The translations under genes and the position numbers were made by a program. The notes beneath the pieces were generated by a model. That model made no database searches, was not told the DNA's origin, and saw nothing but the letters and a program-made list of their open reading frames with translations. Positions 3,009 through 12,037 of a stretch of 13,408 bases of DNA are shown here, in pieces. Position 1 is the first letter of the stretch. Each line of letters begins with the position of its first letter. Origin of the DNA: Candidatus Bathyarchaeum sp. (GTDB lineage Archaea; Thermoproteota; Bathyarchaeia; Bathyarchaeales; Bathyarchaeaceae); assembly GCA_003096235.1 (NCBI GenBank), contig PIXT01000207.1, positions 1 through 13,408 on the forward strand. The letters run 5' to 3'.

Positions 3009-3644
3009 ATGAACAAGTTCGACCGAGACATAGAGATTCTATCTGCAAAACTAAACATGGACACAGACAAAGAAGCCCAGAAGAAGCTGAATGTTCTAAA
3101 AGATAAGCTGATTCGGATGCATGACGAGAATGTCGTCAAGATTAACCATTCTGTTATGGAGATGGTATGCGCTAAACATTTGGTTCTTAAAGGCTACGAA
3201 GTGGATATTGAACGCCCCGTAAACGGGTTAATCTGTGACCTGTACGGCGTAAAGGGCTTTGGTTCACACATTGTCGAAATAGAAACTGGTTTTATTCCTC
3301 CAAGTCACGCCCTTGACCCTGCTAACTACCGCAAGTCACGGATAGCCAGCAAAATAATCAGGTACGGTAACCATTCAGAAAAGTTTGCCTTAGGTGTTCC
3401 GCCATATTATGTGCTGCAGATTCCCGAGATGCTAGTGAAGCCTCCTAGAGACCGAACAAAAAAAGACCTCAAGTACCTCAAAACTCTGTGTGACCTTTAC
3501 TACAAAAATCCGCCAGTTAGCCTCGATGAAATCAGAAACTCTCGTATTCATACAATCTACATAATAGATGTGGATGGAATATCTGTAAGAGAAGTTGACC
3601 CTGCAACATACCTAGAGAAGCGTTCCCTTTTTTCGTCAACATAA
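3009..3644 (+). CDS. Crenarchaeal-type conserved protein, possible PD-(D/E)XK fold
   Basis: A 211-residue protein. A charged helical N-terminus (residues 1-45) leads to a core with Glu51 in a helix, GYEVDIERPVNGLICDLYG (62-80, Asp77), then the strand HIVEIETGF (87-95, Glu90 and Glu92), then SHALDPANYRKSRIASKIIRYG (99-120). Helix-Glu, strand-Asp and strand Glu-x-Glu/Lys is the layout of restriction-endonuclease-like folds; here the usual Lys is Glu92, so catalysis is doubtful. I recall similar VEVETGF...HALDP sequences in crenarchaeal proteins of unknown role. ATG 3009 follows AAAGG at eight bases. The next gene on the strand begins 84 bases after the stop. The conserved family is likely; the fold is inferred. 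Confidence 0.75.
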   Translation: MNKFDRDIEILSAKLNMDTDKEAQKKLNVLKDKLIRMHDENVVKINHSVMEMVCAKHLVLKGYEVDIERPVNGLICDLYGVKGFGSHIVEIETGFIPPSHALDPANYRKSRIASKIIRYGNHSEKFALGVPPYYVLQIPEMLVKPPRDRTKKDLKYLKTLCDLYYKNPPVSLDEIRNSRIHTIYIIDVDGISVREVDPATYLEKRSLFSST

Positions 3645-9461: not shown

Positions 9462-9600
9462 AACATTCCCCCCAACACTTCGATATTTAATACTAACACA
9501 CTTTGCCTAGATATAATTTGTCACACACCCTATGAACAAAGCATATGCGCCGACAAGTTTTTTATTTCACACTCTGCCCAGTTAGTTTTGGGGTTATTTG

Positions 9601-10035
9601 ATGAAATTACTAAGTAAAGATTTTGAAGATACCAAAAACATCCCCTCCGAATTTACCTGTGACGGAAGAAATGTCTCGCCGCAGCTTTCATGGGAAGATG
9701 TTCCTGCTAACACGAAGAGCTTTGCGTTAGGTGTCACTGACCCTGATGCTCCAGGAGGCATGTGGATTCACTGGCTAGTGTATGATATTTCCAAGGCGTT
9801 ACGCGAAATCGAACAGAACAGTTTGCCTGCGGGAGCCAAAGAGGTGGAAAACGATTTTGGCAAAAAACCGTATGGTGGACCTTGTCCGCCTTCAGGAACT
9901 CACAGATACATCTTTGTCATCTACGCACTTGATGTTGAACATTTAGAGGGAATCAAAAAACACAACTTTCTAAACAAAGTTGAAGAGCACACTATCGAAA
10001 AAGCGGTAATCAAAGGATTATACAAAAGGCGATGA
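9601..10035 (+). CDS. PEBP / YbhB-YbcL (Raf kinase inhibitor-like) protein
   Basis: A 144-residue PEBP-family protein. Signature parts are FTCDGRNVSPQLSWEDVP (18-35), TDPDAPGGMWIHWLVYDI (46-63) and GGPCPPSGTHRYIFVIYAL (92-110), which form the anion-binding pocket (Asp47, His57, and the PPSGTHR turn). No signal peptide, so cytosolic. It binds phosphate-like ligands; prokaryotic roles are largely undefined. ATG 9601 is preferred to an adjacent in-frame TTG at 9598. A TTTTTATT element near 9558-9566 would start transcription close to the ATG. It stands alone. Family call is secure. Confidence 0.93.
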   Translation: MKLLSKDFEDTKNIPSEFTCDGRNVSPQLSWEDVPANTKSFALGVTDPDAPGGMWIHWLVYDISKALREIEQNSLPAGAKEVENDFGKKPYGGPCPPSGTHRYIFVIYALDVEHLEGIKKHNFLNKVEEHTIEKAVIKGLYKRR

Positions 10036-10113
10036 TTTTAACAGCATTTGCATGTTTCTTTTTGGTGCTGTCTGTTTTGAACTATTACCGTTGATATAAA
10101 AAATAATTTGGTT

Positions 10114-10131
10114 AAAAAAACCATTCATGGT
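10114..10131 (-). terminator. Hairpin plus T7 after the micro-ORF unit
   Basis: Read on the minus strand, ACCATGAATGGT can fold as a 4-base stem (ACCA/TGGT) with loop TGAA, followed directly by seven T. It starts 14 bases after the stop of the 17-aa ORF. The stem is short, but the T tract alone suits archaeal termination. Confidence 0.5.
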
Positions 10132-10144
10132 AGTTGTACCAAGT

Positions 10145-10198
10145 TTATGCTTTGCCTGTCTTATTGACTTTCTTTCCTTTCTTCCCCTTCTTTGGCAT
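10145..10198 (-). CDS. 17-aa lysine-rich microprotein
   Basis: ATG 10198 to TAA 10145 encodes MPKKGKKGKKVNKTGKA, with eight Lys in 17 residues and no acidic residue. It has a full GGAGGTGA ribosome site (10204-10211, minus strand) five bases before the ATG, which is stronger than that of nearly every other gene here. It follows the acidic ORF by 45 bases on the same strand and precedes a hairpin with T7. Too short for any fold; it would bind acids such as RNA, DNA or the acidic partner. I know no match. The ribosome site is the main reason to call it. Confidence 0.6.
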   Translation of the reverse strand: MPKKGKKGKKVNKTGKA

Positions 10199-10243
10199 CT
10201 AGCTCACCTCCCCTTTCAATGAGCAAATTGCTGTTTGGTTTAC

Positions 10244-10309
10244 TTACCAGTCTTCCTCTTCTTCGTCGTCTTCTTCCCAATCTTCCCACTCGTTTTCTTC
10301 GAACATCAT
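10244..10309 (-). CDS. 21-aa acidic, Trp-containing microprotein
   Basis: ATG 10309 (followed by a second ATG) to TAA 10244 encodes 21 residues: 14 Asp/Glu, three Trp (8, 11, 21), one Phe and no basic residue. The core is EWEDWEEDDEEEEDW. GGAGGTGA at 10315-10322 lies five bases before the first ATG, with exactly the same spacing as in the basic partner downstream. The site is half of an inverted repeat (10314-10329). A TATA element at 10351-10360 would start the transcript just upstream. It could be a peptide that pairs with the Lys-rich one, or a leader whose Trp codons sense charged tRNA; no Trp gene is nearby. Coding status is inferred. Confidence 0.6.
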   Translation of the reverse strand: MMFEENEWEDWEEDDEEEEDW

Positions 10310-10313
10310 ATGT

Positions 10314-10329
10314 TTCACCTCCAGGTGAA
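10314..10329 (-). promoter_or_regulatory. Inverted repeat covering the first microprotein ribosome site
   Basis: The minus strand reads TTCACCTGGAGGTGAA: seven-base arms TTCACCT and AGGTGAA around GG. In RNA a six-pair stem with loop TGGA would hide the GGTGA part of the ribosome site; in DNA it would be a dyad near the transcript start. Either reading gives control of this unit. Confidence 0.5.
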
Positions 10330-10350
10330 GTCTCCTTGAGAGAACGTCAC

Positions 10351-10360
10351 AATAAAAATC
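10351..10360 (-). promoter_or_regulatory. TATA element of the micro-ORF unit
   Basis: The minus strand reads GATTTTTATT, centred about 46 bases before ATG 10309. A start near 10330 follows, which would put the inverted repeat at the 5' end of the message. Confidence 0.4.
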
Positions 10361-10621
10361 AAATAAGATTTGTGCGTCAGAAAAAGATGATAAAAACAGG
10401 CTATTTAGGCGTATTGTGGAATAATTTAAGTTATTTTATCTAAAACGCCATTATTCAAAGCATTGAACCAAATTAAGTCTTATTAAAGCCCTTATCTATC
10501 TTTATAAACCCATTTTGGGTTTATTGTTCGAATTACTTGTGAATTTAGAGTGAAAACAACAATTGAAAACTATCAGAGGCTTTAAAACCCCGAACAAACC
10601 AACACCATGCTCAAATACAAA
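10361..10621. other. Spacer between the micro-ORF unit and the second HExxH gene
   Basis: AT-rich, with no gene seen. It holds the 9-base-arm inverted repeat at 10504-10524 next to TATA-like sequence, which could be an alternative promoter or the 3' end of the HExxH transcript. No tRNA was found. Confidence 0.4.
10504..10524. repeat. Perfect inverted repeat, 9-base arms
   Basis: ATAAACCCA and TGGGTTTAT flank a three-base TTT. On both strands it carries a TATAAA- or TTTATAAA-like edge. It could be an operator, or a hairpin at the end of the gene at 10622-11152. Confidence 0.6.
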
Positions 10622-11152
10622 CTAAAACCCAAATAACATCTTTTGTACATTATGCCTGCTCTTAACATCGGCATTCTGGTGCCTGATGAAGATGCCAAAG
10701 TAATTCTCTGTAAGCTGCCGCACCTTGCTTTCATTGTCCTCATACTTTACGTGAAGAAGTTCATGTATCAAAGCTGCCATGGCTCTGCTTTTCAAATAAA
10801 AGAGAACTTTTTCTTTTTTGTGCTTTTGTAGTTTTTTCTTAAGAAGGCTACGCCTTTTTGGAAAAATGAGAATCACGCCCTCATTGTTGCATCTTCCCGC
10901 AAGAGACTTTCCATTTTCTTTTTGAAACGGAAACATACGAACCTGAATATCCTTAACCGCTTTTTTCTCAATTTTTTCTCGTTTAATTATCCAACGCAGA
11001 AACTTCTGGAACAAAGGTTTTTTCAAAGTTTCAGAAACTGCCGACGCGTAACAAGTGTAAAACTGTAGCCTTTTTTCTGGGCATTTTTTGAGTTTCTTGG
11101 GATTTGAAACCACTCTAATCTTGTTTGAAAGTTTTGTTTTATTCATTTTCAT
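10622..11152 (-). CDS. Second HExxH putative metalloprotease, Lys-rich
   Basis: A 176-residue protein with HELLH at residues 130-134 (His130, Glu131, His134) and Glu141 eleven residues after the first His. Val144-Arg145 and Leu147 match in spacing the protein at 639-1214. The strand GVILIFPKR (92-100) precedes the helix. The N-terminal 120 residues are strongly basic, suggesting nucleic-acid or ribosome contact, somewhat like SprT-type proteins, but that is weak. No signal or membrane segment. ATG 11152 is followed in frame by ATG 11146, which has AGGA at a better distance, so the start may be 11146. It stands alone; activity and target are unknown. Confidence 0.7.
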   Translation of the reverse strand: MKMNKTKLSNKIRVVSNPKKLKKCPEKRLQFYTCYASAVSETLKKPLFQKFLRWIIKREKIEKKAVKDIQVRMFPFQKENGKSLAGRCNNEGVILIFPKRRSLLKKKLQKHKKEKVLFYLKSRAMAALIHELLHVKYEDNESKVRQLTENYFGIFIRHQNADVKSRHNVQKMLFGF

Positions 11153-11290: not shown

Positions 11291-12037
11291 TCACGTAGGA
11301 TTAATGATGGCATTAACCCTTCTTTGAGCATGATACGCTTTCATTAGGCTTTTCGAAAAATCTATCTTTAGCCACACTTCATAGACTGTAGCTACCTTCT
11401 TTAGAATTAAGAATCTTCGTTTGATTCTTGAAAAACGGTCACGTATTACTCCATAATCGTTTGTAGTGCGGGCTTTTATGTAGATTTCTTTGCATGAGCT
11501 GACAATATCGGCGGCAGCTTTTTCAACACGTTCTCTGGTTTCTTGCATAAGCCTTTCTACAGATGCAACGTTGACGATCACTGCTCGTGAAATAATTTTT
11601 ACTTTTCCTTGAATCTCTCTGATGAAGTTAACAAACTTTAAAGCGTCAACAAGTTTTGGCTCTTTTTCATACAAAGAATGCTTCTGAGAGAAAGCGTAAA
11701 CAGAACGACGCAAACGTATACATGGCGCACGTCTAAGAAAGCTTGTCACATTCTCTCTGTTGGCTCCTTTTGGAAGAGTAAATGTCACCACTATCAAGCT
11801 TCCAAGCCCAGAGAACTCCTTCTTTTTGGCAAGTTTCGGGTTCTTGATTTCCCTTAATCGCCTCAAAAGTATTGGCTGATTATTCTCAAGCACCTTAAAG
11901 ATGTGGTGAACTTTCTTTTCGTTAACTTTCCAGAACGCCCTATGTACCTGCTGGCACCCAAGCTCCTTTAAACGAGCGGGAATGCTACTTCTCTTCTTGG
12001 ATTCTATAGACGCTCTATATACCACATACAGGACCAT
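11291..12037 (-). CDS. Hypothetical protein, Cas2/ChrB-like N-terminal half
   Basis: A 248-residue basic protein. MVLYVVYRASIESKKRSSIP (1-20), then a helix and HRAFWKV (32-38), looks like a ferredoxin-type fold of Cas2 style. A second similar pattern, LIVVTFTLP (81-89), helix, RRSVYAFS (110-117), is close in feel to ChrB N-termini. The Cas2 Asp after the first strand is Arg8 here, so nuclease action is unlikely. Residues 160-235 are helical and charged, with KARTTNDYGVIRDRFSRIKRRF. There is no CRISPR array or cas1 near. ATG 12037 has a TATA element about 33 bases upstream and only a weak ribosome site. I do not recognise the family; the fold is inferred. Confidence 0.7.
   Translation of the reverse strand: MVLYVVYRASIESKKRSSIPARLKELGCQQVHRAFWKVNEKKVHHIFKVLENNQPILLRRLREIKNPKLAKKKEFSGLGSLIVVTFTLPKGANRENVTSFLRRAPCIRLRRSVYAFSQKHSLYEKEPKLVDALKFVNFIREIQGKVKIISRAVIVNVASVERLMQETRERVEKAAADIVSSCKEIYIKARTTNDYGVIRDRFSRIKRRFLILKKVATVYEVWLKIDFSKSLMKAYHAQRRVNAIINPT

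Follow-up and report, generated by a model that had tools for sequence, protein, structure and literature searches.

The carrier proteins LysW and ArgW are small and acidic, with a Trp in the tail; the acidic tail of LysW ends in EDWGE, and the C-terminal Glu of LysW/ArgW accepts the amino acid. Proteins of the prothymosin alpha/histone H1 type are eukaryotic and over 100 aa long. For such strongly charged, disordered pairs, PMC11971343 includes a description of charge-driven binding without folding. Among the findings given in PMC6791870, the tail peptides SEEEALAGLSALFG and KKEEEVDLSGLSGMFGF of the archaeal stalk protein aP1 bind EF1A, and the stalk partners it names include IF5B, EF2 and ABCE1. 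In Salmonella, as set out in one part of PMC8092293, acidic residues in the short ORF mgtQ are reported to impede translation of mgtQ itself and to increase translation of the following gene.

The acidic microprotein described below was found in a 13,408-nt stretch of Candidatus Bathyarchaeum sp. (contig PIXT01000207.1; hereafter the window), where a basic microprotein accompanies it, and it can be compared with each of these systems. Like the aP1 tail it has a flexible acidic run followed by hydrophobic or aromatic residues, but it is a free peptide, far more acidic, with a Trp every few residues and no globular stalk domain, and any binding of translational GTPases or ABCE1 in the manner of the aP1 tail would be hypothetical. 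Prothymosin alpha/histone H1 pairs share the strong charge and disorder, but they lack the Trp ladder and have no homology to the archaeal microproteins. Like mgtQ, the archaeal frame is a tiny acidic ORF near other genes; mgtQ, however, acts in cis on the next gene in the account cited above (PMC8092293), whereas the archaeal ORF is usually separated from the next gene by a T-run and some copies have no same-strand follower. The comparison with LysW/ArgW is taken up below, together with a fusion protein that bears on it.

The two-ORF locus and its relatives

The window contains two tandem mini-ORFs on the minus strand (Table 1). An initial sequence-only reading had described these frames, a GGAGGTGA ribosome site before each and equal spacings to the two start codons, and all of this proved exact. 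Counting both strands of the window, GGAGGTGA occurs only twice, in both cases at a mini-ORF, against 0.20 copies expected, and at least two copies appeared in 5 of 200 shuffles. The same reading had placed a TATA-like element before the ORFs and a hairpin with T7 behind them: the AT-rich stretch and the T7 run are present, but the hairpin is weak, with 17 of 200 shuffles folding equally well and a simple terminator scan listing no site there. The whole message shows no extra stability of RNA fold relative to shuffles (z +1.14), and Rfam gave no match to the window at its gathering thresholds. No T-run separates the acidic from the basic ORF, and the pair looks like one small transcription unit encoding two microproteins that look translated. 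As a separate observation, ribosome site 1 lies inside a possible small hairpin, the perfect inverted repeat TTCACC-TGGA-GGTGAA (10329-10314, minus), which could mask the site; by eye, the repeat is imperfect in the G003 and G051 copies introduced below.

Table 1. Features of the window (positions are counted from its first nucleotide).
Feature	Position	Strand	Remarks
Acidic Glu/Asp/Trp microprotein ORF, MMFEENEWEDWEEDDEEEEDW	10309-10244	minus	21 aa, 14 D/E, 3 W, no K/R; net charge -14
Basic Lys/Gly microprotein ORF, MPKKGKKGKKVNKTGKA	10198-10145	minus	17 aa, 8 K, no D/E; net charge +8
Ribosome site 1, GGAGGTGA	10322-10315	minus	exactly 5 nt upstream of the acidic ORF ATG
Ribosome site 2, GGAGGTGA	10211-10204	minus	exactly 5 nt upstream of the basic ORF ATG
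TATA-like/AT-rich stretch, AATCTTATTTGATTTTTA	10370..10353	minus	putative promoter; TATA-like CTTATTTGAT at ~10367-10358
T7 tract 3' of the basic ORF	10120-10114	minus	probable oligo-T terminator
Convergent neighbour, PEBP family (PF01161)	9598..10035	plus	adjoins the acidic ORF in G003 (L003) too
Upstream neighbour, 176 aa, HELLH motif	10622..11152	minus	metalloprotease-like by eye; no confident family
248-aa protein, MVLYVVYRAS...RSSIPARLKELGC	11291-12037	minus	no Pfam family

Conservation in relatives is decisive in dismissing a chance origin of the window pair. The PEBP gene has relatives in three genomes, two of Ca. Bathyarchaeum and one of Ca. Bathyarchaeota, at 71-81% identity, which places the window in the archaeal class Bathyarchaeia. 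In genome G003 an acidic orthologue, MVFEEEDWDEWEEDDEGEEDW, is kept beside this gene with a GGAGGTG site upstream; the 77%-identity match extends over an AT-rich stretch, CTTATTTGATTTTTAT, that precedes the orthologue and resembles the promoter stretch of the window, and the basic ORF is absent at this, the window's own locus. At L001 and L002 the PEBP gene is followed by different DNA, and an acidic ORF was not detected, L002 being masked there (~90 N). In G051 (L042) and G053 (L027) a gene resembling the 176-aa neighbour (by eye) lies upstream of an acidic ORF, again without a basic ORF. Both genomes carry the full pair at another locus, as MVFEEDDWDDWEEDEGDEEDW, a 44-nt gap, and then MMPKKGKKDKKSTKANKK preceded by GGAGGTGA, and they give the clearest instance of the pair being retained in relatives, a check that had been set in advance. 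Loss of the frames in close relatives, which had been named beforehand as grounds for rejection, was thus found in part, for the basic ORF, which is missing from the G003 and G051 copies.

Genes like that for the 248-aa window protein stand, by eye, beside acidic microproteins at L033, L038, L066, L067 and most of L077-L086; this protein type is a recurrent neighbour of the acidic microproteins.

The acidic family and its occasional basic partner

The strict search pattern for the acidic ORF, TGG-(GAN)3-gap-(GAN)2-TGG-stop, imposes no frame on the gap. It matches 83 of the 256 genomes from Bathyarchaeia (2 when reversed as a control) and, in a sample of 398 genomes spanning the phylum, 134 (4 when reversed), with a few false matches such as L129. 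Because a relaxed pattern, although matching 177 of the 398 genomes, is noisier, its reversed control climbing to 35 genomes, we relied on the strict one. The loci examined comprise 87 from Bathyarchaeia, with two strict matches in G052 and those in G190, G201, G202, G204, G207 and G217 left out, and 39 others, for which 40 non-bathyarchaeal loci were taken by eye for spread among the matches listed. Judged by these sequences, the acidic ORF is one of a family of Glu/Asp/Trp microproteins of about 16-50 aa that extends through Thermoproteota (in the GTDB sense); examples are MVFEEEEEWEEEDWEEEEWEEEEW (L049), MSRRKTPPKEEEEEEEEEWEDWGEEEEEWEEEEEWEEEEEEW (L080), MPIWYYREEEEWEEEEELWEEFEEEWEEEEEW (L105) and MVVYFEEEWWEEEEEEWEEEEEWWEEEEEW (L109). 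Across 129 acidic ORFs, Glu makes up 64% of the residues, Trp 15% and Asp 6%, and net charge runs from -8 to -32 (median -17). Length and repeat number vary freely, from 16 to about 50 aa, and every collected member ends in Trp, as the search pattern demands.

That the acidic ORF is a real coding gene follows from several comparisons, in which the loci are related by descent and the counts are not independent events. Among 130 distinct strict-pattern stretches (with L001-L011, L022 and L046 left out as duplicate or non-family places), the gap is divisible by three in 129, the sole exception being the false match L129, which lies inside a long repeat protein; Glu, Asp or Trp accounts for 818 of 865 gap codons. 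Equal-length pairs whose proteins are 75% or more identical (78 pairs) differ 150, 146 and 602 times at the first, second and third codon positions; choosing pairs in this way itself favours third-position change, and the frame test is free of that bias. The 60-nt flanks of the compared ORFs are 41% identical when aligned without gaps. Of 129 acidic ORFs, 76 (66 of 94 in Bathyarchaeia) have a Shine–Dalgarno (SD) match of at least 6 nt upstream of their best in-frame start and the other 53 lack one, the baseline being 361 of 58883 start codons overall. The GAA/GAG repeats are of low complexity, as they would be if the ORFs had arisen by chance in purine-rich non-coding DNA or a small RNA, but the frame test, the third-position bias and the SD placement all stand against such an origin, and in a viral-contig control the same pattern kept frame in 91 of 120 cases among the matches listed. 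We regard a chance origin as scarcely conceivable and rejected it on the frame test and the codon-position bias. Among the short frames listed for viral contigs, L198 alone resembles the family (30 aa, 63% D/E).

Searches of Pfam and NCBIfam with four acidic members found no family, and a PDB search with one member found no matching chain, so that homology to aP1 was not detected in these searches. A large protein database searched with a 44-aa and a 42-aa member returned nothing at E<=0.01, a kind of search that low complexity weakens, and a surface-level survey of the literature found no recognisable description of such a Glu/Trp microprotein family. In 13 of 18 selected genomes the acidic ORF lies on a contig of at least 1.3 Mb, and good assemblies, perhaps cultures, therefore exist.

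The acidic module also occurs as the tail of longer proteins. At L102 and L103 (G279) the same Glu/Trp tail closes two proteins that contain a TTEDSGCFAL.PDPFAP-type part (frames of 125 and 117 aa), the L103 fusion having no Pfam match. At L139 a minus-strand frame ending near 3041 joins a zinc ribbon resembling LysW (PF21344, 27.1 bits for a cut-off of 27; NF041070, 37.4 for 75) to a long Glu/Trp tail, and a Lys-rich frame follows. This fusion, together with the small size, the acidity, the Trp in the tail and the internal EDWGE of several 40-aa members, would fit an amino-group carrier related to LysW. The free microproteins, however, lack the zinc ribbon, which was seen only in the L139 fusion, and none of the four that we scanned matched a LysW model; they also lack the terminal Glu, all collected members ending in the Trp that the pattern requires. 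A carrier role of this kind is very unlikely.

A Lys-rich mini-ORF lies within 60 nt behind the stop codon at 9 of 128 acidic ORFs, compared with 5 of 1720 long-ORF stops and 38 of 7860 random places. All nine partners are bathyarchaeal, and eight begin M/V-[A/G/P]-K-K (L043 read from its second Met); three carry GGAGGTGA in full, and in three the start codon lies no more than 11 nt from the acidic stop, resembling translational coupling. The layout of the window, with no T-run between the ORFs and oligo-T behind them, recurs by eye at L043, L023, L024 and L090; looser cases are L028 and L139, the latter with T5 between the frames and no standard start codon for the Lys-rich one. The basic peptide of L066 ends in KKEEEW. 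A strict Lys-rich start pattern matches 13 of 256 Bathyarchaeia genomes and is linked to an acidic ORF only in G051-G053, the other 10 matches lying elsewhere, and for this reason a widespread basic family cannot be claimed. The proposal of a self-contained acidic/basic unit therefore survives for the small two-ORF unit itself but not for the acidic ORF at large, which is phylum-wide and mostly unpartnered.

The pair had also been proposed as a toxin-antitoxin or obligate buffered pair, for which its bicistronic layout and opposite charges would speak, recurring within 60 nt in G051/G053 and in seven other sampled genomes besides the window. Genes of a type II toxin-antitoxin system are kept as a pair, but at 119 of 128 acidic ORFs no basic partner lies within 60 nt, the basic ORF is variably present at a single locus (it is missing at the window locus in G003 and G051), and a toxin fold in 17 mostly Lys/Gly residues seems unlikely. 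We consider such a system highly improbable. Since it is missing at the same locus in relatives, the basic peptide is best described, as far as comparison of genomes goes, as a real but facultative partner rather than an obligate toxin-antitoxin half, and mutual binding of the acidic and basic peptides is plausible.

Gene neighbourhoods and transcript boundaries

Neighbours were counted by motif matching with a Pfam check on ten representatives, leaving out L022, L025 and L027 (duplicates) and L129 (not in frame from Trp to Trp). At 43 of 87 bathyarchaeal loci the next gene on the same strand, 52-139 nt downstream, encodes the ribosome-recycling ATPase ABCE1, and at 32 of 87 an asparaginase-family gene precedes the acidic ORF. 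ABCE1 is a neighbour at 3 of the 39 non-bathyarchaeal loci by script and at 5 by eye (adding L125 and L140). An RPB9-like zinc ribbon gene adjoins 16 of these 39, in 8 on the same strand behind the acidic ORF and in 8 divergently, the representatives scoring under the curated cut-offs (Pfam, 23.4 and 22.7 against 25.2 bits; TFS, 30.8 against 64.75). Other recurrent neighbours among the 39 are a THUMP gene (6), a downstream AdoMet decarboxylase gene (4) and a PhoU-domain gene on the opposite strand (3). Among 40 more bathyarchaeal ABCE1 genes, taken from the matches listed and with no strict match adjoining, 11 have an upstream acidic mini-ORF: ten clearly belong to the family, one of them at a distance of 650 nt, and the eleventh is doubtful; the other 29 have none, although L272 has only ~100 nt to the contig end.

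Several observations on neighbours stand apart from these counts. At L109-L114, L117 and L119 the steady neighbour is a protein of ~100 aa with only an N-terminal RPB9/TFS-like zinc ribbon, possibly an undescribed RNA-polymerase-associated protein; the L109 member falls below the TFS cut-off. At L066 and L070 the acidic ORF is followed by a 42-aa microprotein with a zinc ribbon, MAKCPKCGKEVEKP...CCGKKFREYEKKA, which at L066 has a GGAGGTGA site. By eye, the non-bathyarchaeal loci L104-L108, where AdoMet decarboxylase follows, have a TATA-like box ~25 nt upstream of the start codon, the spacing of leaderless messages.

The main rival to a peptide acting in trans is a regulatory leader, a uORF whose acidic nascent chain would destabilise the ribosome and so control ABCE1, the RPB9-like gene or AdoMet decarboxylase in cis, sensing for example Mg2+, polyamine or recycling capacity. 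We rank it as such because an acidic short ORF regulates the next gene in Salmonella, as part of PMC8092293 describes. A same-strand gene lies within 300 nt downstream at 56 of the 87 loci from Bathyarchaeia and at 19 of the 39 from elsewhere, AdoMet decarboxylase among them, as such a leader would have it. A leader would, however, always lie upstream of a same-strand gene, and no such gene lies within 300 nt behind the acidic ORF at the other 31 and 20 loci. Copies without a same-strand follower include the window, G003 and L077-L086; at L087-L089 the ORF sits among hydrogenase-maturation-like genes (named by eye) with no same-strand gene next, and in G198, G199 and G135 (L097, L098, L060) it is still behind the asparaginase gene despite a following gene that lies on the other strand. 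The divergent RPB9-like arrangements and the fusion of the module to longer proteins likewise speak against a leader. The Trp-sensing leader offered by the sequence-only reading is unsupported on the same counts, and no trp gene was recognised among the neighbours identified.

Transcript boundaries bear on the same question. In 37 of the 44 intervals separating an acidic ORF from ABCE1, a T5 run is found no more than 70 nt beyond the acidic stop, against 14.5 expected, and because T-runs usually intervene, the acidic ORF looks like its own transcript. By eye, many of these intervals have a TATA-like TCATATTTATAA before ABCE1, while a generic BRE/TATA score there is hardly above that of shuffles (7.73 vs 7.43). 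A cis leader is in our judgement a genuine possibility, though an unlikely one.

Possible roles of the acidic peptide

The ribosome has a micro-subunit, eL41; by analogy, the acidic peptide could be a tiny structural subunit of the ribosome or RNA polymerase, or a partner in its assembly, with the basic peptide binding rRNA and the acidic one serving as its carrier. Tiny size, phylum-wide occurrence, frequent proximity to ABCE1 or RPB9-like genes and a Lys/Gly-rich basic peptide would all suit this role. On the other hand, no PDB chain matches the one member searched, length and repeat number are free to vary as those of a fixed subunit would not be, and only 134 (strict) to 177 (relaxed, noisier) of the 398 genomes match; we think a subunit quite unlikely. 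A cation buffer, in which the polyanion would hold Mg2+, polyamines or metals and the polycation would tune it, is compatible with the high negative charge and with the AdoMet decarboxylase and PhoU-domain neighbours outside Bathyarchaeia, but it leaves the Trp content and the ABCE1/RPB9-like neighbourhoods unexplained, and we hold it to be distinctly improbable.

The reading that we prefer, at a probability of roughly 0.4, is that of a disordered, polyanionic acidic peptide that acts in trans and uses its Trp residues as stickers. Action in trans is argued from the copies that are divergent or have no same-strand follower, from the T-runs and from the use of the module as a tail of longer proteins. 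It would target those components of the gene-expression machinery whose usual ligand is nucleic acid or the aP1 tail, which is acidic and hydrophobic-ended; the first candidates are ABCE1 and other translation factors. The C-terminal ...EEEEW would mimic an aP1-type tail and might compete for, hold or deliver factors; where the polycation is present, it would bind the polyanion electrostatically and adjust the amount that is free. Such a mimic is our best guess because the EEEEW layout is like that of the aP1 tail, the charge is nucleic-acid-like and ABCE1 or RPB9-like genes are often nearby.

The step from acidic gene to function is one that we infer. Gene neighbourhood alone is no proof of function, and the neighbours vary, from AdoMet decarboxylase and PhoU/AbrB-type genes to hydrogenase-maturation-like genes and PEBP. 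The mimic reading is weakened by the 29 further ABCE1 genes without an acidic mini-ORF, by RPB9-like scores below their cut-offs, by an ABCE1 promoter score near that of shuffles and by the acidic ORFs without a long SD match; it is weakened, too, by the aP1 tail itself, which ends in Leu/Met/Phe-Gly and has no Trp ladder, and by a basic partner that is mostly missing. The narrower proposal, that these free Glu/Trp peptides form an unrecognised class of diffusible stalk-tail mimics that serve translation and transcription throughout the phylum and tune ABCE1-dependent ribosome recycling and other factor traffic, with a Lys/Gly counter-peptide added in some Bathyarchaeia, is correspondingly doubtful, though worth entertaining.

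The strict pattern matches about one third of the sampled genomes of a major archaeal phylum, and the family has apparently been overlooked because its members are only 16-50 aa long and of low complexity. On the narrower proposal, some Bathyarchaeia would possess a natural pair of oppositely charged polyelectrolytes, each some 20 residues long; the acidic/basic pair also offers a minimal model for complexes of opposite charge. Since the acidic ORF is often adjacent to ABCE1 or RPB9-like genes, its product may be a so far unrecognised factor in archaeal gene expression.
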